NCBI GenBank assembly: GCA_027318915.1
Contig: DAHVOH010000001.1
Location: 50,411-114,410, forward strand
Direction: 5' to 3'
DNA length: 64,000 bases
Origin: Clostridiales bacterium
Lineage (GTDB): Bacteria; Bacillota_E; Sulfobacillia; Sulfobacillales; JAIMBI01
Shown: positions 12,465 through 35,341 of the stretch, in pieces
How positions within the stretch are numbered: the first letter of the stretch is position 1
Layout: every line of letters starts with the position of its first letter
The notes under the pieces: model-generated
Database searches by the model: none
What the model was told of the DNA's origin: nothing
The model's input: the letters and a program-made list of their open reading frames with translations, nothing else
Program-made: the position numbers and the translations under genes

Positions 12465-12565
12465 CCTCTTATGGAGAGCGGCGGAGGGACTGGCCCGATG
12501 ATGCCCGGCAACCGGACTGATGTCACGGTGCCAAATCCTGCAGCCAATCGCTGAGAGATGAGAGG
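12465..12565 (+). ncRNA. SAM-I riboswitch (S-box leader) of metY
   Basis: The S-box core is plain: a P1 stem CCTCT (12465) with AGAGG (12561-12565), then TTATGGAGAGCGGCGGAGGG, the GGCCCGATGATGCCCGGCAACC region, and the closing CCAATCGCTGAGAGATGAGAGG. It lies directly before an intrinsic terminator and metY on the same strand. By family knowledge, S-adenosylmethionine binding favours the terminator, so metY is expressed when SAM is low. Confidence 0.95.
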
Positions 12566-12650: not shown

Positions 12651-14423
12651 ATGTCGGAACCTCGGGAGTATCATTTTGACACGGTGGCCATTCATGGGGG
12701 CGCGGCGCCCGATCCGGCCACCGGTGCGCGTTCGGTCCCGATCTATCAGACCACCGCCTACGTTTTTCAAAGCACGCAGCATGCCGCGGAGCTCTTCAAC
12801 CTGGACGAGGCGGGCAATATCTACACCCGCATCATGAACCCCACCACCGATGTGTTGGAGAAGCGGGTGGCGCTGTTGGAAGGTGGTGTGGCGGCCGTCG
12901 CCTTTGCCAGCGGACAGGCCGCCACGACGGCGGCCGTGCTGAATTGCTGCCGCTCCGGGGACGAGGTGGTGGCTTCCTCACATCTCTACGGCGGCACATT
13001 CACACTGTTGTCCTCCACCCTGTCCGATCTGGGGATTCGGACCCGGTTCGCCGATTCGTTGGCGGAGGCGGCCACCCTGATGACCGAGCGGACCCGGATG
13101 GTTTTGGTGGAAACCTTGGGCAATCCCCGGCTGGACGTGTCCGACCTCGGCGCGTGGGCGCGGCTGGCTCACCATCACGGCGTACCCCTGGCGGTGGACA
13201 ACACCTTCGCGACGCCCTACTTGTGTCGGCCCCTGGAACATGGGGCGGATCTCGTCATCCATTCGGGCACCAAGTGGCTCGGCGGGCACGGGGCCGCCAT
13301 GGGCGGCGTGATTGTGGACGGCGGCGCCTTTGACTACGACCGGCCGGAGTTTCCGCAGTTTTCCGAGCCCGATCCCAGCTACCATGGGCTTCGTTTCGCA
13401 CGCGAAATGGGGAGCCTGGCGTTCGCCACGCGCCTTCGGGTCAAGCTGCTGCGCGACATGGGAGCGGCGCTGGCACCGCTGAACGCTTGGCTCATTCTGC
13501 AGGGCATCGAAACCCTGTCCATTCGGATGGAGCGGCACTCGGCCAACGCGGCCGAATTGGCCAACCGTCTTCGGACGCATCCCGGCGTCGCCTGGGTCAA
13601 TTATCCCGGCCTGCCGGACCACCCGTCTCATGAGCTGGCGGTTCAATACTTGGACCGGGGTTTGTACGGGGGCATGCTCAATTTCGGGATTCGCGGCGGG
13701 GTGGAGGCGGGCAAGCGGTTCATCAACGCACTCGGGCTCTGGTCGCATGTCGCCAATGTGGGGGACGTCCGTTCCTTGGTCATTCATCCGGCCTCCACCA
13801 CCCATCAGCAGCTATCGCCGGAGGAGCAAATTCGAGCCGGAGCCGATCCCGATCTGGTTCGGCTCTCGGCTGGCCTGGAGCATGTGGATGATTTGTGGGA
13901 AGACATGGAACAGGCGCTGGCCAAGGCGTCCGGGGATTGGCGCCCGTCGGTCCTCATCAATGACGAGGCGGTGATTCGATCCGTGGCGCAGTCGCCCACC
14001 CGCCCGGACGGGCGCCCTTGGACCATCGCCGTGGTGGGTCTCTCCCGGCAGCCCGGACGCCCCTCCTACCGCGTGGCCCGAAAGCTCCAGCGCCTCGGCT
14101 ACCGCATCATTCCCGTGAATCCCGCCTATGCCGGCCAAACCATTCTGGGCGTGCCGGCGGTTGCCCGATTGGGGGACATTGCGGAACCCGTCGATGTGGT
14201 CGAGGTCTTCCGCACATCGGACAAGGCGCCCGAGGTGGCGGGAGAAGCTGCCGGGATTTCGGCGCCCGTCTTCTGGATGCAAGAAGGCGTCGTCAGTCCG
14301 GTGGCCGCCCGGACGGCATCGGCGGCCGGCAAGCGCGTGGTGATGAACCGCTGCCTATTCAAGGAGATCCAGCGTCTGCGCGGCACCATCGCGACGTATC
14401 CGCGCTTTTCGGACCAGGGTTGA
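12651..14423 (+). CDS. metY: O-acetylhomoserine sulfhydrylase fused to a CoA-binding domain
   Basis: Makes homocysteine (or methionine from methanethiol) from O-acetylhomoserine, the product of MetX. The 590 residues have two parts. Residues 1 to about 435 are a Cys/Met-metabolism PLP enzyme: YQTTAYVFQSTQHAAELF, ASGQAATTAAVL, ETLGNPRLDVSD, VDNTFATPYLCRP and the PLP lysine in LVIHSGTKWLGGHG near residue 207. From about residue 455 a CoA_binding_2 Rossmann domain follows: IAVVGLSRQPGRPSYRVARK, IIPVNPAYAGQTILG, VDVVEVFR and VFWMQEGVVS. MetY is usually about 430 residues without this tail. ATG 12651 follows AAGGGGGAG. Expression is controlled by the SAM-I riboswitch. Confidence 0.93.
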   Translation: MSEPREYHFDTVAIHGGAAPDPATGARSVPIYQTTAYVFQSTQHAAELFNLDEAGNIYTRIMNPTTDVLEKRVALLEGGVAAVAFASGQAATTAAVLNCCRSGDEVVASSHLYGGTFTLLSSTLSDLGIRTRFADSLAEAATLMTERTRMVLVETLGNPRLDVSDLGAWARLAHHHGVPLAVDNTFATPYLCRPLEHGADLVIHSGTKWLGGHGAAMGGVIVDGGAFDYDRPEFPQFSEPDPSYHGLRFAREMGSLAFATRLRVKLLRDMGAALAPLNAWLILQGIETLSIRMERHSANAAELANRLRTHPGVAWVNYPGLPDHPSHELAVQYLDRGLYGGMLNFGIRGGVEAGKRFINALGLWSHVANVGDVRSLVIHPASTTHQQLSPEEQIRAGADPDLVRLSAGLEHVDDLWEDMEQALAKASGDWRPSVLINDEAVIRSVAQSPTRPDGRPWTIAVVGLSRQPGRPSYRVARKLQRLGYRIIPVNPAYAGQTILGVPAVARLGDIAEPVDVVEVFRTSDKAPEVAGEAAGISAPVFWMQEGVVSPVAARTASAAGKRVVMNRCLFKEIQRLRGTIATYPRFSDQG

Positions 14424-27180: not shown

Positions 27181-27201
27181 GCTGGGGAGGGAGTTTTGGT
27201 C

Positions 27202-29187
27202 ATGACTTTGCCATCGTGGGTCCTGTATCTGGTTCATACGTTCTTTCCTCATGACGTTCTTCGCCCGACCGAGCTCGGCGCCGACTTTCTCATCATCGTG
27301 ACGGGCGTCCTCATCACGGGATACCTCACCCGTCAGAAGAAGTGGCGATACCTGTGGGACGAGTGGCTGACCACGGTAGACCACAAGAAGATTGCCGTCA
27401 TGTATCTGATTGCCGCGGTCGCCATGCTGTTCAGGGGCGGCGTGGACGCGTTGATGCTGCGCACGAACCTGGCGCTGCCCGGCCATCCCGTCATCAGCGC
27501 TTCGGAATATAACGAGGTGTTCACGACGCATGGCACCATCATGATTTTCTTCATGGCCATGCCGTTCATCTTCGCCCTGTTCAACGCCGTCATCCCGCTG
27601 ATGATCGGTTCGCGCGACGTGGCTTTTCCGCGGCTGAACGCCATGAGTTTTTGGCTCTTTGCTTTCGGCGCTCTGCTGCTCAACATCTCGTTTGTGATTG
27701 GCGGGTCGCCAAGCGCCGGGTGGACCGGGTATCCACCGTTGACCGAAGCGATTTTCACGCCGGGTCCGGGTCAGAACTACTACTTTCTGTCCCTGCTCAT
27801 TGCGGGCATCGGAACGCTGATGACGGGCATCAACTTCTTGGTGACGCTCGTTAACCTCCGGGCACCCGGCATGCGCCTCATGCGGCTCCCGATGTTTACG
27901 TGGACCGTGCTGGTGACCATGGTGCTGATCCTGTTCGCATTCCCGCCGCTGACCGTGGCGTTGGCGCTGAGCCTCATCGACCGCGTCTTCGGCTCCTCAT
28001 TCTTCACCTTGGGCCACGGCGGCATGCCCATGATGTATGTGAATCTCTTCTGGCTGTTCGGACACCCCGAGGTTTACATCGTGGTCCTGCCCGCCTTCGG
28101 CATCTTTTCTGAGGTGGTGTCCGTCTTTTCGCGCAAGGCCTTGTTCGGATACGAGGTGATGGTGGCGTCCATTGTGGCCATCATGTTCTTGGCCTACGGC
28201 ACTTGGGTGCATCACTTCTTTACGATGGGCGCGGGTCCCGCGGTCAACGCCTTCTTTGGACTGTCGACGATGTTGATCGCCATTCCCACCGGTGTGAAGA
28301 TTTTCAACTGGATCTTCACGATGTGGGGAGGGCGGATTCGGATGACGGTCGCGATGCTGTATCAGTTGGCCTTCATCCCCACCTTTGTCATCGGAGGCGC
28401 CACCGGCATCCTCTTGGCCACGGTCCCGGCCGACTACCAGTTGCACAACAGCTACTTCCTGGTGGCGCACTTCCACAACGTGCTGATTGGGGGAACCCTG
28501 TTCGGCCTGCTGTCGGGGTTGTACTACTGGTGGCCGAAAATGTTCGGCCACAAGCTCGACGAGCATCAGGGCAAGTGGGCTTTCTGGCTGTACTTCATCG
28601 GCTTCTGGATCACGTTTGGGCCCCAGTATCTCTTGGGTCTCAAGGGAATGACGCGGCGCATGTACACCTATCCGCTGGGGTTCGGCTGGCACGGGCTGAA
28701 TGTCATTTCAACCCTGGGCGCCTTCATGATGGGAGCCGGGTTCTTGGTGATGGTGTACAACATCGTGTGGAGTCTGCGCTTTGGCGAGCGCGACGAAACC
28801 GGCGACCCCTGGGATGGCCGCACCCTGGAGTGGGCCCTGTCGTCCCCGGCGCCGGAATACAACTTCGCCCGCATTCCCGTGGTTCGGGCCCGGGATGCGT
28901 GGTGGGACATGAAGGAGCATGGCCAGTCGCTGGCCAACGCCCTGCGGCCGCGCGACATTTACGACCTGCACCTGCCCAAGAACACGCCGGTGCCGATTCT
29001 GCTGGGCTTCAGCTTCTTCGTCTTTGGATTCGGGGCGGTCTTCGAGTGGTGGATGGTGGCCGCCCTGGGGGCCCTGGGAGTGGCGGCCACCCTCATTTAC
29101 TCGGCGTTTGACACCGATGAGCACAAGCACATTCCGGCCGCGGAGATTCGGGAAACAGAAGTGGCGTTGGGGAGGATGCGCGCATGA
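27202..29187 (+). CDS. qoxB: aa3-type quinol oxidase subunit I
   Basis: Catalytic subunit with the low-spin haem and the haem-copper centre that reduces oxygen to water while pumping protons. The 661-residue protein has the expected array of membrane helices. Visible ligands: His of VFTTHGTIMIFFMAMPF (low-spin haem), the CuB motif FGHPEVYIVVLPAFG (His and cross-linked Tyr), the TWVHHFF histidine pair, and VAHFHNVLIGG (haem ligands). RGGVDALMLR near the N-terminus matches the quinone-site Arg/Asp of bo3/aa3 quinol oxidases. ATG 27202 follows GGGGAGGGAG. It overlaps qoxC by four bases. Confidence 0.94.
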   Translation: MTLPSWVLYLVHTFFPHDVLRPTELGADFLIIVTGVLITGYLTRQKKWRYLWDEWLTTVDHKKIAVMYLIAAVAMLFRGGVDALMLRTNLALPGHPVISASEYNEVFTTHGTIMIFFMAMPFIFALFNAVIPLMIGSRDVAFPRLNAMSFWLFAFGALLLNISFVIGGSPSAGWTGYPPLTEAIFTPGPGQNYYFLSLLIAGIGTLMTGINFLVTLVNLRAPGMRLMRLPMFTWTVLVTMVLILFAFPPLTVALALSLIDRVFGSSFFTLGHGGMPMMYVNLFWLFGHPEVYIVVLPAFGIFSEVVSVFSRKALFGYEVMVASIVAIMFLAYGTWVHHFFTMGAGPAVNAFFGLSTMLIAIPTGVKIFNWIFTMWGGRIRMTVAMLYQLAFIPTFVIGGATGILLATVPADYQLHNSYFLVAHFHNVLIGGTLFGLLSGLYYWWPKMFGHKLDEHQGKWAFWLYFIGFWITFGPQYLLGLKGMTRRMYTYPLGFGWHGLNVISTLGAFMMGAGFLVMVYNIVWSLRFGERDETGDPWDGRTLEWALSSPAPEYNFARIPVVRARDAWWDMKEHGQSLANALRPRDIYDLHLPKNTPVPILLGFSFFVFGFGAVFEWWMVAALGALGVAATLIYSAFDTDEHKHIPAAEIRETEVALGRMRA

Positions 29188-29810
29188 GCTGGCCACTCGC
29201 GAAAGAGACGCCGGAACCCGACACCCATCTGCCTCCCGAACTGGCGGATGAGGGCGAGAGTGTCAAGATCACCGGATTCTGGATGTTCCTGGTGACGGAC
29301 GTCCTGATTTTTGCCAGTCTGTTCTCGGTTTACGCCGTGTACAAGTCGCGGGTCGACGTGGGCCCGGGCCCGGCCCAGCTGTTTACACTGGGTCCCGTCC
29401 TGCTGGAGACGCTGCTCTTGCTGACGAGCAGCTTCACGGTCGGCATGGCCATCTGGTCGATGCGCACCAATCGCATACGGGCTCTCACCGTCTGGCTCGT
29501 GGCGACCCTGGTGCTGGGCGCCGGTTTCGTGACCAGTGAAATCCACGACTTCGTGACGTTTGTGTCGCAGGGGTACACGTGGCACGTGAGCGGATTTCTC
29601 TCCGCGTTCTACGTGCTGGTGGGCACGCACGGGAGTCACGTGACCGCCGGCATCCTGTGGGCCACCGCGCTCCTCATCCAGTTGGGGCGCCGCGGCCTCA
29701 CGCCGTCGCTCCGGCGCAAGATCTATTCGTTTTCTCTGTACTGGCACTTCCTGGACATCGTTTGGGTGTTCATTTTCACGTTCGTGTACTTGGGCGGGAA
29801 AATCGGCTAG
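29184..29810 (+). CDS. qoxC: Quinol oxidase subunit III
   Basis: A 208-residue membrane protein with five hydrophobic helices, as expected for the short quinol-oxidase form of subunit III. Family features are FWMFLVTDVLIFASLFSVY near residue 30, the Glu in VTSEIHDFVTFVSQGY near 115, FLSAFYVLVGTHGSHVTAG near 135 and YWHFLDIVWVFIFTFVYL at the end. It does not carry redox groups; it stabilises subunit I and its proton uptake. ATG 29184 overlaps the qoxB stop in ATGA. Confidence 0.92.
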   Translation: MSWPLAKETPEPDTHLPPELADEGESVKITGFWMFLVTDVLIFASLFSVYAVYKSRVDVGPGPAQLFTLGPVLLETLLLLTSSFTVGMAIWSMRTNRIRALTVWLVATLVLGAGFVTSEIHDFVTFVSQGYTWHVSGFLSAFYVLVGTHGSHVTAGILWATALLIQLGRRGLTPSLRRKIYSFSLYWHFLDIVWVFIFTFVYLGGKIG

Positions 29811-29849
29811 CCGTCGGGAGCCAAGCGCGAACTTAGGAAGGTGGGGCGA

Positions 29850-30224
29850 ATGGCCGAAACGTTTGGTCCCCGGACGGGACCGGAGGAGAGCGCGGCGGAA
29901 GAGGGCCTCTTGTTTCTTGCCCCCAAAATCGAATCGGAAGGATTTCCGTGGCTCCAGATCTGGGGCTATATCGGTTCGCTGGTGCTGACCTTCGGCGCGT
30001 TCGGCTTGGTCGTGTATCATCTGATGACGCCCTTGATGCTGCTGGTGGTGATTCTGACCTTGGCCGTGGGGCAAGCGGCGCTGCAGCTTGGGGTCTTCAT
30101 GCACCTGCGGGAAGCGCGCGGTCCAGCGTGGCAGATTGTGCCGCTCGGGCTGGCCTTTTTCATCGCCCTCGGGATGGTGGGGATGTCCATCTGGATCATG
30201 CTGTTCAAGTCCGGGGTGTCATGA
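29850..30224 (+). CDS. qoxD: Quinol oxidase subunit IV
   Basis: A small 124-residue membrane protein of the cytochrome o/aa3 quinol oxidase subunit IV family. It has about 35 hydrophilic residues and then three hydrophobic segments: IWGYIGSLVLTFGAFGLVVY, LMLLVVILTLAVGQAALQL and LAFFIALGMVGMSIWIMLF. The middle segment ends with LGVFMHLR, the usual family landmark. It assists assembly of the haem-copper centre. ATG 29850 follows GGAAGG; a GTG nine bases upstream is less likely. It is 39 bases after qoxC. Confidence 0.88.
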   Translation: MAETFGPRTGPEESAAEEGLLFLAPKIESEGFPWLQIWGYIGSLVLTFGAFGLVVYHLMTPLMLLVVILTLAVGQAALQLGVFMHLREARGPAWQIVPLGLAFFIALGMVGMSIWIMLFKSGVS

Positions 30225-30290
30225 CGCGCCGGCTGCTGGAGGCTCCTCCGTCCCGGTGAGGGCGGGGCGGCCGGCGAGGGAGGCGGTGGC

Positions 30291-31265
30291 ATGAAGGCAT
30301 GGTCCGCTTGGGGCTGGGTCACCGCGGGCAGCATTTTTCTGATCAACCTCATTGGCTTCATTGATGCCGAAACCAACTCGGCTCTCGGGTGCGGATCCGA
30401 ATGGCCGCTGTGCAACGGGCGCGTGGTGCCCGACTTCTCCAATCCGCACGTTCTCATCGAGTGGACTCACCGCATGCTGGTCGCCGTCGGCGCGACGCTG
30501 GCGTTTGTCTATCTGACGTGGGCCTGGATTCGGTTTCGCCGCGTGGCGTCCGTGGTCCGGCTGGCCCAGGTGGCGCTGGCCTTCATCGTTATCCAGTCCA
30601 TCATGGGCGCCCTGGCGGTCTTGTTTGTGAACCCCCCCACGATCTTGGCCCTCCATTTGGGCTTCGGCTTGATGGCATTCGGCGCCGCCGCACTGGTGGC
30701 CGTGGTCATGGGGCAAATCGAACAGGAGCGGTCGGGCCGGCCATCAGGTTGGAGCGCGCGCGGGGAATCTCTGTCGCCTCGCGTCCGCCTGGTCGCCTGG
30801 GGTCTTTGGGTCTACCTGTACGCCGCCATTTACCTGGGGTCTTACGTGGCCTTCCGGCAGGCCGGCCCGGCGTGCCCCACCTGGCCCACCTGTCCGGTGT
30901 CTTGGCCGCCCTGGAACAGCGCGGCCGACTTGGACATGGCCCATCGGCTCGTGGCGGTCGGTTTGCTGGCGGCGGCCGCCGGCGTTTGGATCGTCATCGC
31001 GCGCCGGGCGGCCGATCGCATCGATCTGCGCCGAGGCGTCCAATGGGTGATGGCGTTCGTGCTGGCGCAGATCCTGAGCGGGGCGGTGCTGGTGTGGTCT
31101 CACTTGGCGCTCTGGGCCTACACCATCCACGTCGGTCTGCTGATGGGCCTCTTCATGGCCATCTCCTATCTGGCGTGGCAAACTGTGGGCAGAAGCTCGG
31201 ACGCGGTCGGGGCGCCGATGGGTCGGGCGGCGGCCAATCCCCGTGCGGCGCCGGTGCGTCGTTAG
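30291..31265 (+). CDS. ctaA: Heme A synthase
   Basis: Oxidises the methyl group of heme O to the formyl of heme A, supplying the haems of the adjacent aa3 oxidase. The 324-residue, eight-helix protein has the two extracytoplasmic Cys pairs CGSEWPLC (near residue 34) and CPTWPTC (near 195), the carboxylate and His of LIEWTHRMLVAVGA, the His in ALHLGFGLMAFG, and the second-half pair MAHRLVAVGLL and TIHVGLLMGLFM. All four cysteines use TGC, relevant to the UGA codons downstream. No ctaB (heme O synthase) is in the window. It follows qoxD by 66 bases. Confidence 0.94.
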   Translation: MKAWSAWGWVTAGSIFLINLIGFIDAETNSALGCGSEWPLCNGRVVPDFSNPHVLIEWTHRMLVAVGATLAFVYLTWAWIRFRRVASVVRLAQVALAFIVIQSIMGALAVLFVNPPTILALHLGFGLMAFGAAALVAVVMGQIEQERSGRPSGWSARGESLSPRVRLVAWGLWVYLYAAIYLGSYVAFRQAGPACPTWPTCPVSWPPWNSAADLDMAHRLVAVGLLAAAAGVWIVIARRAADRIDLRRGVQWVMAFVLAQILSGAVLVWSHLALWAYTIHVGLLMGLFMAISYLAWQTVGRSSDAVGAPMGRAAANPRAAPVRR

Positions 31266-31544
31266 GCGGCCGCGGGCGCCCCAAAAGACCGGAGAAACAC
31301 GTCCAACGGCAGGATCGGACAGGCGCCGAAGCGCTGCCGGAACTTGGGGCCGGCGGCTCCACAGGTCCGGGCGGCGCGCGTTCTGGTGATCGTCTCGCAA
31401 GGTGCGTCGCCCGGCGCGGGCGAACGGGCCGGATCGGGGACACTCTGGATAGCCCGGGCGGACTCTCGGCCCGCCCGGCATGGGCCGGCGGGCACGCGTT
31501 CCGGCTGCCGACAGCGTGGTCGAGCGACCGTCGGAGGGAGGATG

Positions 31545-31573
31545 TTGCATACCAGGCGGGGTATTGTTACTAT
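31545..31573 (+). promoter_or_regulatory. Candidate promoter of the thiol-redox cluster
   Basis: TTGCAT (31545-31550) and TACTAT (31568-31573) are exactly 17 bases apart, 20 bases before the DUF302 gene start. The -35 box is identical to the one proposed for proBA. Confidence 0.5.
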
Positions 31574-31593
31574 CGACCAAGGGGAGGGACCAA

Positions 31594-32034
31594 ATGACCA
31601 CGGCATCGGCCAACTATTTCAGCCGTTCCACCTCCAAAAGCGTGGCGCAGGCTATTGCGGCCGTGGAACGGGCGCTGGCCGCTCGGCAGTTTGCGGTGCT
31701 CTGGCATCTCGACATCAATGAGAAGTTGAGGGAGAAGGGCTTGCCGGAGGGCCCCCCGTTTCACGTCCTGGAGGTCTGCAGTGCGCCGCGCGCGCAACAG
31801 GCCTTGGAGACCAACCAACAGGTGGGCTATTTCCTGCCCTGCAAGATCGTCGTCTACCAGGATGCCAGGACAGGCGGGACGGAGGTCGGCCTGCAACGCC
31901 CCCAACTGATGGTGGATCTGCTGGGCGATCCGGCGCTGGAGCCGTTGGCGCAAGAGGTGGAAACCTTGCTGAGCGCGGCGGTCGCCGAGGCGGCCGGTCC
32001 TGACGGCGGAGGAGGAGGAGTGGGCGCATGGTGA
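31594..32034 (+). CDS. DUF302-family protein
   Basis: A 146-residue protein of the DUF302 family. It has the family elements VAQAIAAVERALAARQF near the N-terminus, FHVLEVCSAPRAQQALETN in the middle and VGYFLPCKIVVYQD, with the conserved LPC cysteine, then VDLLGDPALEPLAQEVE. The function of DUF302 is unknown; members are often found near sulfur and redox genes and may bind a metal or act as chaperones. GGGGAGGG lies before ATG 31594. Its stop overlaps the start region of the glutaredoxin gene by seven bases, so the two are coupled. Confidence 0.82.
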   Translation: MTTASANYFSRSTSKSVAQAIAAVERALAARQFAVLWHLDINEKLREKGLPEGPPFHVLEVCSAPRAQQALETNQQVGYFLPCKIVVYQDARTGGTEVGLQRPQLMVDLLGDPALEPLAQEVETLLSAAVAEAAGPDGGGGGVGAW

Positions 32035-32267
32035 CGGTGTACACCACCCCCACCTGACCCCATTGCCGGACGCTCAAGCGCTATTTGAAGGACCGCCGAG
32101 TTCCCTTCAAAGAGGTGGACGTCACCACGTCCGCCACAGGACTGGCGGCGTTGAAGCGCAAGTCCGGACAGACCGGGGTCCCGGTCACGGATGTCAATGG
32201 GGTGGTGGTGGTCGGCTTCAATCGGCCGAAACTGGATCGGGCGCTCGGCCTGCGTTCGGCGGAGTAG
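32028..32267 (+). CDS. Glutaredoxin-like protein with in-frame UGA at the active-site cysteine (probable selenoprotein)
   Basis: A 79-residue glutaredoxin/NrdH-like protein if the UGA at 32055-32057 is read through. From ATG 32028 it reads MVTVYTTPT, then UGA (residue 10), then PHCRTLKRYL, KRKSGQTGVPVTDVNG with the cis-Pro, and VVGFNRPKLDRAL. The UGA stands exactly where the first Cys of the CPxC motif belongs; the second Cys is present. Sequence before and after is in one frame and of full family length, so this is not a truncated gene. Selenocysteine is the likeliest meaning; UGA read as cysteine is possible. It overlaps the DUF302 gene. Confidence 0.88.
32055..32090 (+). promoter_or_regulatory. 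Recoded UGA with weak SECIS-like hairpin (glutaredoxin)
   Basis: The UGA at 32055-32057 is followed by a possible stem, C73-UCAA (32073-32077) with UUGA-(A)-G (32085-32090), carrying a loop GCGCUAU that starts with G twenty bases after the UGA. Distance and the leading G suit a bacterial SECIS, but the stem is only four to five pairs. Confidence 0.4.
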
Positions 32268-32325: not shown

Positions 32326-33090
32326 GTGATCTGGCTGGTGCTGAGTGATCCCGATCTCGGATGCAATTCCTACCTGCTGGGGGACGAGGTGGCAGGCATC
32401 GGCATGGTGGTGGATCCGCTGGGCCGGGTCGGAGCTGAGGCCTATATCTTGGCCGCCCAGGACGTGGGACTGACGCTGGAGCATGTCGTCGAAACGCACG
32501 TTCATGCGGATCACGCCTCGGCCGCTCAGGAACTGGCCGATCTGCTGGGGTTGCGGGTAACGTTGTCGCGTCATGCTCCGGCAGCTTTTCCGTTCATACC
32601 GGTGGCCGACGGCGACGTCATTCCGGTGGGAGCCGTGCAGGTGACGGCTTGGGAGACGCCCGGGCACACCCCCGACAGCCTCTCGCTTTTGGTGCACGAT
32701 ACCGGGCGGGGTGAGGAGCCTTGGCTGGTGATGACCGGCGACAGCCTGTTTGTGGGGGATGTGGGCCGTCCCGATCTGGCGGACGCGGATGCCGAAGCCG
32801 TTCGCGCGGCGGCGGCCCAGCAGTTCCAGAGCGTGAGGCGGCTGCTGTCGCTGCCCGACTTTGTGGAGGTGCATCCCGCCCATTACGGATCCTCTCCCTG
32901 CGGCGGATTGTTCATGAGCCGCAAGCCCAGTTCCACCATTGGATACGAGCGGCGCATGAATCGGATGGCGCAATTCACGGAGGAATTTCCGTTCATCGAG
33001 CAGCAGCTGGCGCTGTTGAAGCCGCCGCCGGAAGAAGCCGCGGCACTGCGGCGGCGGAATCTGGGGCGCGGCGAGGAGCGCGCCGGGTGA
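32326..33090 (+). CDS. Persulfide-dioxygenase-like metallo-beta-lactamase protein
   Basis: A 254-residue MBL-fold protein resembling ETHE1/CstB-type persulfide dioxygenases, which oxidise glutathione or low-molecular-weight persulfide to sulfite. Motifs: VVETHVHADHASAAQELAD near residue 55 (HxHxDH), WETPGHTPDSLSLLV near 105 and MTGDSLFVGDVGRPDL near 140, the last being characteristic of this subgroup, then EVHPAHYGSS with the final His. The C-terminal 45 residues form an extra helical tail. The start is GTG 32326 behind GGGGGG. It follows the glutaredoxin by 58 bases and precedes the rhodanese, a context that fits sulfane-sulfur oxidation. Confidence 0.87.
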   Translation: MIWLVLSDPDLGCNSYLLGDEVAGIGMVVDPLGRVGAEAYILAAQDVGLTLEHVVETHVHADHASAAQELADLLGLRVTLSRHAPAAFPFIPVADGDVIPVGAVQVTAWETPGHTPDSLSLLVHDTGRGEEPWLVMTGDSLFVGDVGRPDLADADAEAVRAAAAQQFQSVRRLLSLPDFVEVHPAHYGSSPCGGLFMSRKPSSTIGYERRMNRMAQFTEEFPFIEQQLALLKPPPEEAAALRRRNLGRGEERAG

Positions 33091-33208: not shown

Positions 33209-33865
33209 ATGAGCGAATTGGCGCCTGACGGGTGGGACGAGCTCTTTCGCCGGGTGGCGGCGGGGCATGTGGTGATGGTGGATGTCCGGCCGGGTCACGC
33301 TTACGCGCGAGGCCACATTCCCCACAGCATATCGGCCCCCTACGCGCGGATGGGGTGGGGCAGGCGGCTGAAAAACTGGCTTGGCCCGGGAGCCTCCCTG
33401 ACGTTGGCGGTGGTGGCCGACAACCCGGTCGTGGCCAACGCCGCCCGACAGGCCCTCGAGCAGGAAGGCATCGCGGTCGGTGCGGTTTTGGACGGGGGTC
33501 TCGGCGCATGGGAGGCCCGGGGTCTGCCGCTAGTGGCCGCGGTCGACGTGACGGCGGACCGTCTTCGGCAGGAATTGGATTCGTGGACCGTCATCGATGT
33601 TCGGGAACCCTACGAGTGGCGCTCCGGCGTGATTCCGGGCGCGTTTCGGATCCCGTTGGGCCAGTTGCAGGAGAGAGTGTCCGAATTGGACAAGAACAGG
33701 CGTTACGCGGTCGTGTGCGCTACCGGCAGCCGCTCGCAAGCCGCCGCCGCCTACCTGGCCGATGCCGGGTATGAGGTGGCCAACGTGGTGGGGGGAATGT
33801 CCGTGTGGCTCGCCGGCCGTCATCCGGTCGAACGGCCAGCAGAGGAGCCAAGAGCATGGCGTTGA
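33209..33865 (+). CDS. Tandem rhodanese-domain protein
   Basis: A 218-residue protein of two rhodanese domains. The N-terminal domain (residues 1-105) has VMVDVRPGHAYARGHIPHS but its active-site position reads VVADNPVVAN without Cys, so it is inactive. The C-terminal domain (110-215) has VIDVREPYEWRSGVIPGAF and the catalytic loop VVCATGSRSQAAA with Cys, so it can carry a persulfide. It would pass or accept sulfane sulfur with the adjacent MBL protein and disulfide oxidoreductase. ATG 33209 follows AAAGGGGG. Its last ten bases overlap the PDO gene. Confidence 0.88.
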   Translation: MSELAPDGWDELFRRVAAGHVVMVDVRPGHAYARGHIPHSISAPYARMGWGRRLKNWLGPGASLTLAVVADNPVVANAARQALEQEGIAVGAVLDGGLGAWEARGLPLVAAVDVTADRLRQELDSWTVIDVREPYEWRSGVIPGAFRIPLGQLQERVSELDKNRRYAVVCATGSRSQAAAAYLADAGYEVANVVGGMSVWLAGRHPVERPAEEPRAWR

Positions 33866-34506
33866 TGTCGGATTCCGTCCGAGACGAGGTGGCCCAGTTT
33901 CTGGAGAAGCTGGACCAGCCGGTGGTGTGTCGATTTTATCCCAAGGCCGAGCACCCCGCATCCGAGGCGATGGGCCAGCTGCTGGAGGAGCTGGCCAGTC
34001 TCAATCCCAAGATTCACGTGCAGCGCGAGAACGAAATGCCGGCCCCGGTGCCGCCGGAGACGGCCGACGAGTTGGAGAGTTCGATCACGGTGATCGGGCT
34101 GGACGGTCAAAAGAGCGGTGTCCGCTACCTGGGTTTTCCGGGCGGCCACGAGTTTGGAGCCTTTCTGGAGGACCTGCTGCGCGTGTCCTCCAATGCGGCC
34201 CCCAATTTGGCGGCGGCTACCGTGGAGTATTTGCAGGGACTGAAGGACCCGGTGCATCTCCAGGTGTTTGTCACCCCCACCTGACCCTATTGCCCCCAGG
34301 CCGTGCGCCTGGCTCATGAAATGGCAAGGGTGAACCCCGCCGTCATCACGGCGGATATGGTGGACGCACAGAGCTTTGAGACGCTGTCCATGCGTTTTGG
34401 CGTGATGAGCGTGCCGCTTACGGTCGTCAACGGGGAGGAACAGGTGCTGGGCGCGGTGCCCGAAGAGCAGTTCCTCGCGCAGGTGAAAGCGGCGGTGGGT
34501 GGATAG
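33856..34506 (+). CDS. Two-domain protein disulfide oxidoreductase (PDO) with in-frame UGA at the active-site cysteine (probable selenoprotein)
   Basis: A 216-residue protein of the glutaredoxin-like PDO family when the UGA at 34282-34284 is read through. The first thioredoxin-fold unit (residues 1-115) lacks CxxC. The second begins LQVFVTPT, then UGA (residue 143), then PYCPQAVRLAHEMA, a typical CPYC active site with the first Cys replaced. It continues TADMVDAQSFETLSMRFGV and MSVPLTVVNGEEQVLGAV, ending at TAG 34504-34506. Length and both folds match the family, so decay is unlikely. ATG 33856 overlaps the rhodanese end; ATG 33865 is an alternative. Selenocysteine is the favoured reading. 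Confidence 0.9.
34282..34312 (+). promoter_or_regulatory. Recoded UGA with SECIS-like hairpin (PDO)
   Basis: After the UGA (34282-34284), CCAGGC (34296-34301) and GCCTGG (34307-34312) form a perfect 6-bp stem with loop CGUGC. The loop begins 17 bases after the UGA and has G in its second position. These match the spacing and loop G reported for bacterial SECIS elements. No bulged U is evident in the stem. Confidence 0.6.
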
Positions 34507-34738: not shown

Positions 34739-35083
34739 TCAGACGCCGATCACCTGGTAGCCGTCCTCGACCAATTGAATGAGCACTTCGCCGGCCGGCT
34801 GGTCGATGTTGACGCCGACGGCCGTCACGGTCTCGGTGTCCACACCCTGCTGCTTCACATTAAAAGGGCAGGCCTGCACCGGGATGGCACCGGAACGGAG
34901 CGCCGTCAACGCTTCGGCGATGTCCGGACGGTCAGTCGCAGCCAGCCGGACGCCCGGGCCATAGAGGAATACCTTCACATCCTGCTGGCGGCCGGTGGCG
35001 AGCCGTTCCGCCAAGCGCAGTCCGGCCAGAGCCTTGTCCGCCTGGTCCGGCCCCGCCGTGATCCAAAACGCAATGCGCGCCAT
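34739..35083 (-). CDS. DsrE-family protein (sulfur relay type)
   Basis: A 114-residue single-domain DsrE-like protein. It begins ARIAFWITAGPDQADKALAG, has VKVFLYGPGVRLAA in the middle and a single conserved-position Cys in PVQACPFNVKQQGVD, the site that carries persulfide in sulfur-transferring DsrE/TusD proteins. It ends LIQLVEDGYQVIGV. A longer start at 35125 is possible, but ATG 35083 follows AAAGGAC. The gene converges on the rhodanese/PDO operon and probably shares its sulfur-handling role, although it is transcribed separately. Confidence 0.82.
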   Translation of the reverse strand: MARIAFWITAGPDQADKALAGLRLAERLATGRQQDVKVFLYGPGVRLAATDRPDIAEALTALRSGAIPVQACPFNVKQQGVDTETVTAVGVNIDQPAGEVLIQLVEDGYQVIGV

Positions 35084-35341
35084 GGCTGATTTCTGTCCTT
35101 TCTCGTCTCCGGTCCCGCTTCCCAAAGGTCTCCGCCGCGCGCCGTCAGGGTTTCCACCCGGTCGGTGGATCGCGCCGGCGGGACACCGTCACGCGGCCGG
35201 AAGGGCCGCGAACCACGCCTTGACTGTACGCTACCCGCGTGAGGCTCGAAAGAGGGAGAATGGGAACGGAGCTTGACCGGCCCCGCAGTCGGGGCGCGAG
35301 CTTGTCGCCGCCCTCTCGGCGGCAGAAAGGGGGCCACGACC

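Follow-up and report, generated by a model that had tools for sequence, protein, structure and literature searches.

A UGA codon predicted to encode selenocysteine in a protein disulfide oxidoreductase gene that neighbours a UGA-containing glutaredoxin gene

Two in-frame UGA codons in one gene cluster

The stretch of DNA analysed here (the window, 64 kb) carries five genes that overlap or lie close together on the forward strand: a DUF302 open reading frame (31480..32034), whose true start is perhaps further in, a YruB-like glutaredoxin gene identified by frame reading and orthologues (32028..32267), a metallo-beta-lactamase-fold hydrolase gene identified by domain matches (32326..33090), a tandem rhodanese gene (33209..33865) and a two-domain protein disulfide oxidoreductase (PDO) gene (33856..34506). 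The DUF302 frame overlaps the glutaredoxin start by 7 nt and the rhodanese gene overlaps the PDO start by 10 nt, with a GAGGAG read from the sequence within the rhodanese gene (33842..33847, +) as the likely PDO ribosome-binding site. Upstream of the cluster (27196-31262, +) are genes for terminal oxidase subunits I and III together with one that is CtaA-like, a DsrE-family gene is convergent with PDO (34739-35125, -; a similar gene lies near PDO in the related locus L011), and a SAM riboswitch (RF00162, 80.3 bits) is found at 12466-12564 (+), some 90 nt ahead of a long ORF (12651-14423).

The PDO frame opens with an ATG at 33856 and closes with a TAG at 34504-34506, and its sole internal stop is a UGA at codon 143 (34282..34284, +) in the context VFVTPT-UGA-PYCPQAVRL, which by frame reading and alignment of relatives replaces the first active-site Cys. 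The initial annotation had described a frame that reads through the UGA in this T-P-T-UGA-P-Y-C motif, and such a frame is confirmed in the sequence: no other in-frame stop precedes the TAG. The tail that it described is indeed family-like, although it comprises 73 residues after the UGA (142 precede it), the figure of 74 having included the UGA residue itself. In the glutaredoxin gene, 1.6 kb away, comparison with orthologues indicates that a UGA at codon 10 (32055..32057, +; YTTPT-U-PHC) replaces the first Cys of a C-P-H-C motif. Two copies of the string ACNCCNACNTGACC are present in the window, at 32046 and 34273, against an expectation of 0.04, and none of 100 shuffles gave two. Among the 12 rows listed by a scan for other UGA genes in the window, no further candidate was convincing by eye; the glutaredoxin UGA is not among these rows, so genes of this kind can escape the scan.

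Read through as Cys, PDO matches Pfam Thioredoxin_3 and, over residues 6-212, passes the NCBIfam model TIGR02187 'PDO_seleno_TRX' with 190.9 bits against a cut-off of 185, so that the profile search earlier suggested for the joined translation supports the family assignment. Its best solved relative by sequence is Pyrococcus furiosus PDO (1a8l, E 9.2e-33, over residues 1-213). An AlphaFold2 model from 17 sequences (pLDDT 95, pTM 0.91) has two fused thioredoxin domains, and 1a8l was also its top PDB match in Foldseek. The Cys-type archaeal PDOs 1a8l and 1j08 share the two-domain architecture (TM 0.87 to 1a8l), but in the alignment they have C-x-x-C in each half, whereas the window PDO has its predicted selenocysteine (Sec) in the second half and no such motif in the first. 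The first half holds one lone Cys, and the other 21 rows of the window PDO's set hold none. On a tree of 105 PDO rows, the N-terminal CxxC is missing from 42. Of the 46 Sec rows, 36 lack it, whereas 53 of the 59 Cys rows have it and 6 do not. U143-P-Y-C146 would therefore be the only such redox centre in the predicted product, and a PDO clade with a putative U-x-x-C as its sole motif of this kind looks new. We claim no correlation between Sec and loss of the N-terminal CxxC, because the tree holds only 3 CxxC changes, mostly in one clade, and independent pairs give no support.

Among the best 120 of 3221 database matches, ten clusters (P0001, P0002, P0006-P0010, P0016, P0018 and P0021) comprise 142-aa proteins that are 50-99% identical to the window PDO, and some entries of this product carry the name AhpF. 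The common end across this range of identity indicates that diverged genes share the stop, and the 142-aa entries are explained by gene callers truncating PDO at the UGA.

Codon 143 and the selenocysteine machinery in relatives

We scanned genome contigs for related PDO loci and retained the best 80 of 541. The closest 20 (L001-L020, in 19 genomes numbered G) are from Bacillota MAGs, one of them labelled Sulfobacillus acidophilus, and the group appears to be Sulfobacillus-like. Codon 143 is TGA in 17 of them (L001-L013, L015, L018-L020) and TGC in three (L014, L016, L017), so the Sec/Cys pairs that the initial annotation had suggested seeking at this column are present. The 19 UGA frames examined (17 loci, the window and L159) have no second stop and continue for 72-74 codons from the UGA to the end. 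Over the first 66 post-UGA codons in a gap-free comparison, dN/dS was 0.072, 0.016, 0.103, 0.109, 0.093 and 0.091 for the six UGA pairs with the smallest pS, and L008/L019 had a value of 0.034; wider pairs reached 0.45, with synonymous sites near saturation. Disabling mutations or relaxed selection had been named as evidence against read-through; the 19 frames contain no further stop, and the six closest pairs show purifying selection after the UGA. Among 44 PDO-bearing genomes of a wider set, a distant PDO match in G031 (C223:133-567) has a TAG as well as a TGA inside. G031 has no SelB match, and its PDO match is possibly a decayed copy.

The UGA state, found in 46 of the 105 tree rows (L077 was dropped, its motif missing; the long rows L219, L227 and L062 were flagged), requires 9 Sec/Cys changes by a quick method, at least 7 of them on starred branches. 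On this tree L020 (Sec) groups as the sister of L016/L017 (Cys; support 98*), the pattern to be expected if Sec had given way to Cys as the machinery was lost. Three genomes hold two PDO copies: G012 (L012, L159), G013 (L013, L018) and G014 (L014, L161). The copy adjoining a glutaredoxin gene has UGA in G012 and G014, and the other copy in G014 is of the Cys type.

All 16 genomes with the 17 UGA loci pass the SelB and SelD cut-offs. Across the 19 genomes, matches over cut-off were found for SelB in 17, SelD in 17, SelA in 15 and the tRNA-Sec model RF01852 in 15. Only G016 and G017, which harbour loci L016 and L017, fail both SelB and SelD; SelA is missing too (E 1e-40), and both genomes carry a Cys-PDO and a Cys-glutaredoxin. 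Across these relatives, the Sec/Cys state of the PDO column tracks SelB and SelD. The third Cys locus, L014, lies in G014, a genome that has SelB and also, at the edge of a contig, part of a second PDO that begins at a TGA. SelA is also absent from G004 and G006, both positive for SelB and SelD, which likely reflects MAG incompleteness. Each of the 17 SelD matches has one TGA, which in the one inspected is codon 11 of the match (SKSG-U-GCK).

We examined all 22 RF01852 matches over cut-off; weaker ones were mostly set aside and L098 and L099 were left out. They comprise 15 UCA tRNA-Sec copies in 13 of the 19 genomes, all with G before CCA, six GCA tRNAs, and one tRNA cut by a contig end (L095, G010) in which the same TCA is visible by eye. 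The lone match over cut-off in G012 is a GCA tRNA. The six GCA tRNAs have a long arm (L200:1064-1152, L201, L202, L203, L204 and L094:1503-1593, from G008, G018, G007, G004, G013 and G012) and T before CCA in five cases, L202 reading CCG. Five of these six genomes also have UCA tRNA-Sec and none was found in G012; the six tRNAs fit the selC* tRNA-Cys class described in PMC7609411.

A wider set of 121 genomes from the class of G010 contained 44 with a PDO match at E 1e-30. SelB (E 1e-70) was present in 26 of 27 genomes with a verified UGA-PDO vs 49 of 94 others (Fisher p 9e-6, with relatedness uncorrected, unverified TGA rows among the 94, and 6 of the 27 also among the close genomes above). 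The exception, G124, has a verified UGA-PDO and no SelB match. Within the 64 kb of the window we found no tRNA and nothing resembling SelA, SelB or SelD (best E 0.48); the window's own cell presumably has the machinery seen in its relatives.

A SECIS-like hairpin and competing readings of the UGA

Downstream of codon 143 lies a SECIS-like hairpin, CCAGGC-CGUGC-GCCUGG (34296..34312, +), with its loop 17 nt after the UGA and GU at loop positions 2-3. Its 5-nt loop, 6 bp stem, G at loop position 2, spacing and energy (-9.6 kcal/mol) all fall within the bacterial limits given in a 2026 review (a loop of 3-9 nt, a stem of 4-16 bp, a G at loop position 1 or 2, a distance of 16-37 nt to the UGA and an energy <= -7.5 kcal/mol; PMC13188914). 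We scored contiguous stems against 500 synonymous re-codings per gene, or 300 in a second set, which comprised L207-L230 plus five loci from other lineages (L078, the 46th UGA row, is unscored). Within the limits were 18 of 19 UGA-PDOs in the first set (L011 fails) and 25 of 26 in the second (L037 fails), as opposed to none of three Cys-PDOs in either. Mean hairpin energy among the 19 was -9.5 vs -3.9 kcal/mol for the re-codings, with single-gene p-values of 0.01-0.1 in 17 of 19, and the fold of the whole 51-nt stretch lay just a little under its null (mean z of -0.61, vs +0.57 for the Cys rows).

The hairpins share the motif CC(A/G)GGC-NGUNN-GCCUGG, 17-18 nt from UGA to loop, and L041, L055, L060 and L066 have other stem sequences at the same place. 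Across 45 related rows, the stem codons hardly vary at their third position (CCC for Pro in 41/45, CTG for Leu in 40/45), while each of the four bases occurs there in the Ala GCN and Val GTN codons of the loop. At the counterpart of the CTG, the three close Cys-PDOs have TTA/TTG, and the three distant ones keep CTG without the hairpin. Covariation in the stem was rejected as proof, since we found one both-sided change and 86 of 500 shuffles scored as high in a fixed register; the hairpin is instead supported by its energy, its synonymous sites and the contrast with Cys genes.

We consider it highly probable (about 0.92) that the UGA at residue 143 is read as Sec, and we infer both the insertion itself and the chemistry of the product. 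The hairpin, 12-28 nt after the UGA, is predicted to cue SelB and tRNA-Sec.

A sequencing or assembly error at 34282 would be an easy explanation, UGA being one base from UGC/UGU, but the same UGA is present at 17 loci from 16 other assemblies and the same pattern is seen in the neighbouring glutaredoxin gene. The relatives refute this reading in practice and uphold the earlier judgement that error is unlikely; its probability is negligible. Scarcely less improbable is a true stop, with only the 142-residue N-terminal domain made and the remainder a remnant. It would account for the database annotation, which gives exactly that product, and the extra stop in the distant match of G031 would suit it. 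The purifying selection and intact frames beyond the UGA, however, argue for a translated tail, the UGA recurs in 46 of the 105 tree rows, and the N-terminal domain alone would be without any CxxC.

Equally far-fetched is an ordinary Cys-PDO in which the UGA is read as cysteine by a selC*-type opal-suppressor tRNA-Cys. Such tRNAs are known in Firmicutes, some with a UCA anticodon (PMC7609411), and long-arm tRNA-Cys-like genes occur in six relatives. Yet all six, recovered as tRNA-Sec-model matches in the 19 relatives' genomes, have GCA, and the 15 UCA tRNAs of these relatives have G73 rather than the CysRS base U73, so that the selC* combination of U73 with UCA was not found among these matches. 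Reading by tRNA-Cys would also leave the tie to SelB/SelD and the hairpin unexplained.

The glutaredoxin partner and a possible sulfur-handling unit

The glutaredoxin scores 85.3 bits, just below the TIGR02196 cut-off of 88.55. Close orthologues (71-82% identity) occur in 15 of the 19 genomes, 11 with UGA and four with Cys (G007, G010, G016, G017); SelB is present in all 11 UGA genomes, and both SelB-less genomes have Cys. Contiguous-stem scoring found no SECIS in the UGA glutaredoxins (0/9 and 0/5; L180, L181 and L183 are unscored), a set of 12 glutaredoxins yielded no consensus fold, and one 48-nt fold of the window gene reaches only -7.5. These results are what one would expect if PDO were a selenoprotein and the glutaredoxin UGA simply ended translation, leaving no two-selenoprotein pair. 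A stop at codon 10 would, however, leave no protein, the UGA and Cys orthologues track SelB, and some bacterial SECIS elements lie outside the model (PMC13188914, SECIS passage), so we hold this reading to be improbable. In place of a convincing SECIS, the Sec assignment of the glutaredoxin draws on the occurrence of Sec and Cys forms that follow SelB, and it is less well supported than that of PDO. Overall, Sec in both genes is likely, with somewhat less assurance than for PDO by itself.

Both genes have UGA within about 1.6 kb in the window, in G012, G014 (where PDO is a fragment) and G015, and on opposite strands in G098, G068, G124, G131 and G081. A UGA-PDO adjoins a Cys-glutaredoxin in G007, G010 and G051, and both are Cys in G016 and G017; an adjacent pair with Sec in the glutaredoxin alone was not found among the loci examined. 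Around 21 wider-class UGA-PDO loci, flanks of about 1.5 kb contained a glutaredoxin motif in six (5 UGA, 1 Cys). In the other 8 of the 15 genomes that encode a close orthologue of the glutaredoxin, PDO is on a different contig or 25 kb off (G011), and no close glutaredoxin was found in G001, G002, G003 and G005. The repeated proximity of a putative Sec-glutaredoxin to a putative Sec-PDO, in the window and eight genomes, looks new.

The Sec-PDO family has been predicted before. The table of PMC13188914 lists TIGR02187 with UxxC as 'Predicted with high confidence', the family is also listed in PMC9312934, and a homologue of the AhpF N-terminal domain (Grx-like domain protein), counted as 2 selenoproteins in 2006 in a paper whose organism table includes Carboxydothermus and Symbiobacterium (PMC1794560), belongs to the same family model with the same U-x-x-C. 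Set beside this listed family, the window PDO is marked by the absence of the N-terminal CxxC, as in most Sec rows, and by a predicted Sec-glutaredoxin neighbour. The neighbour is of the same kind as the selenoprotein glutaredoxin (UxxC, PF00462), but YruB-like and below the TIGR02196 cut-off; the table of PMC13188914 places Sec-Grx higher than its 'predicted' heading, and the text of this review cites enzyme work on it. Selenoprotein operons (grdA-grdB, prdB-prdC, frhA-frhD-hdrA, SAO, Tso) likewise place genes with Sec codons side by side, and the window pair, on one strand among overlapping or close genes, is a candidate for joint transcription. The initial annotation held that no operon with both glutaredoxin and PDO as selenoproteins had been described: the pair is indeed absent from the operon passage of PMC13188914, but the novelty does not extend to Sec-PDO itself. 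The parts consulted of PMC1242214 hold nothing on the pair, and open-licence literature, as far as its accessible text goes, yielded neither such a pair nor a Sec-PDO in Sulfobacillus. For this genus, every genome is reported to encode a Sec formate dehydrogenase (PMC4378227), and S. thermotolerans a Sec peroxiredoxin (PMC7409299). Taken singly, both genes represent known selenoprotein families, but database entries for this PDO stop at residue 142.

The order hydrolase-rhodanese-PDO recurs in L001-L005 and L011, with DUF302 too in L002, L003 and L005. Against its nearest NCBIfam models the hydrolase scores 62.3 bits (GloB) and 39.6 (a sulfur transferase/dioxygenase), far below cut-off in each case. 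Judging from the rhodanese and metallo-hydrolase neighbours, PDO probably belongs to one sulfur-handling unit with the overlapping rhodanese, the hydrolase and the putative Sec-glutaredoxin, and would act as a selenolate-first thioredoxin-type enzyme that reduces disulfides or persulfides. A shared sulfur/persulfide function of the glutaredoxin-PDO unit is a tentative suggestion. Comparably speculative is a double-selenoprotein relay in Sulfobacillus-like sulfur bacteria and their relatives, in which a Sec-glutaredoxin and a one-centre Sec-PDO might be partners in selenium-dependent persulfide/disulfide reduction, fed by the tandem rhodanese and a persulfide-dioxygenase-like hydrolase, and in which loss of the N-terminal CxxC might mark the point at which a two-thiol PDO became an enzyme that relies on Sec only. 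The predicted one-centre Sec-PDO raises the question of whether a single U-x-x-C could replace the two CxxC of the classical PDO, and the Sec/Cys switches in the gene pair, one of which coincides with absence of the whole machinery, offer a natural experiment on Sec retention.

UGA-PDOs also occur beyond Bacillota, in Chloroflexi/Anaerolineae (L037, L041, L066, L078) and Neomarinimicrobiota (L060) and at L055. These six keep the N-terminal CxxC, and the SECIS-like hairpin lies within the limits in 4 of the 5 scored. A distant PDO group (L221-L226, L229 and L227) has UGA at the same site and an N-terminal domain that likewise lacks CxxC.
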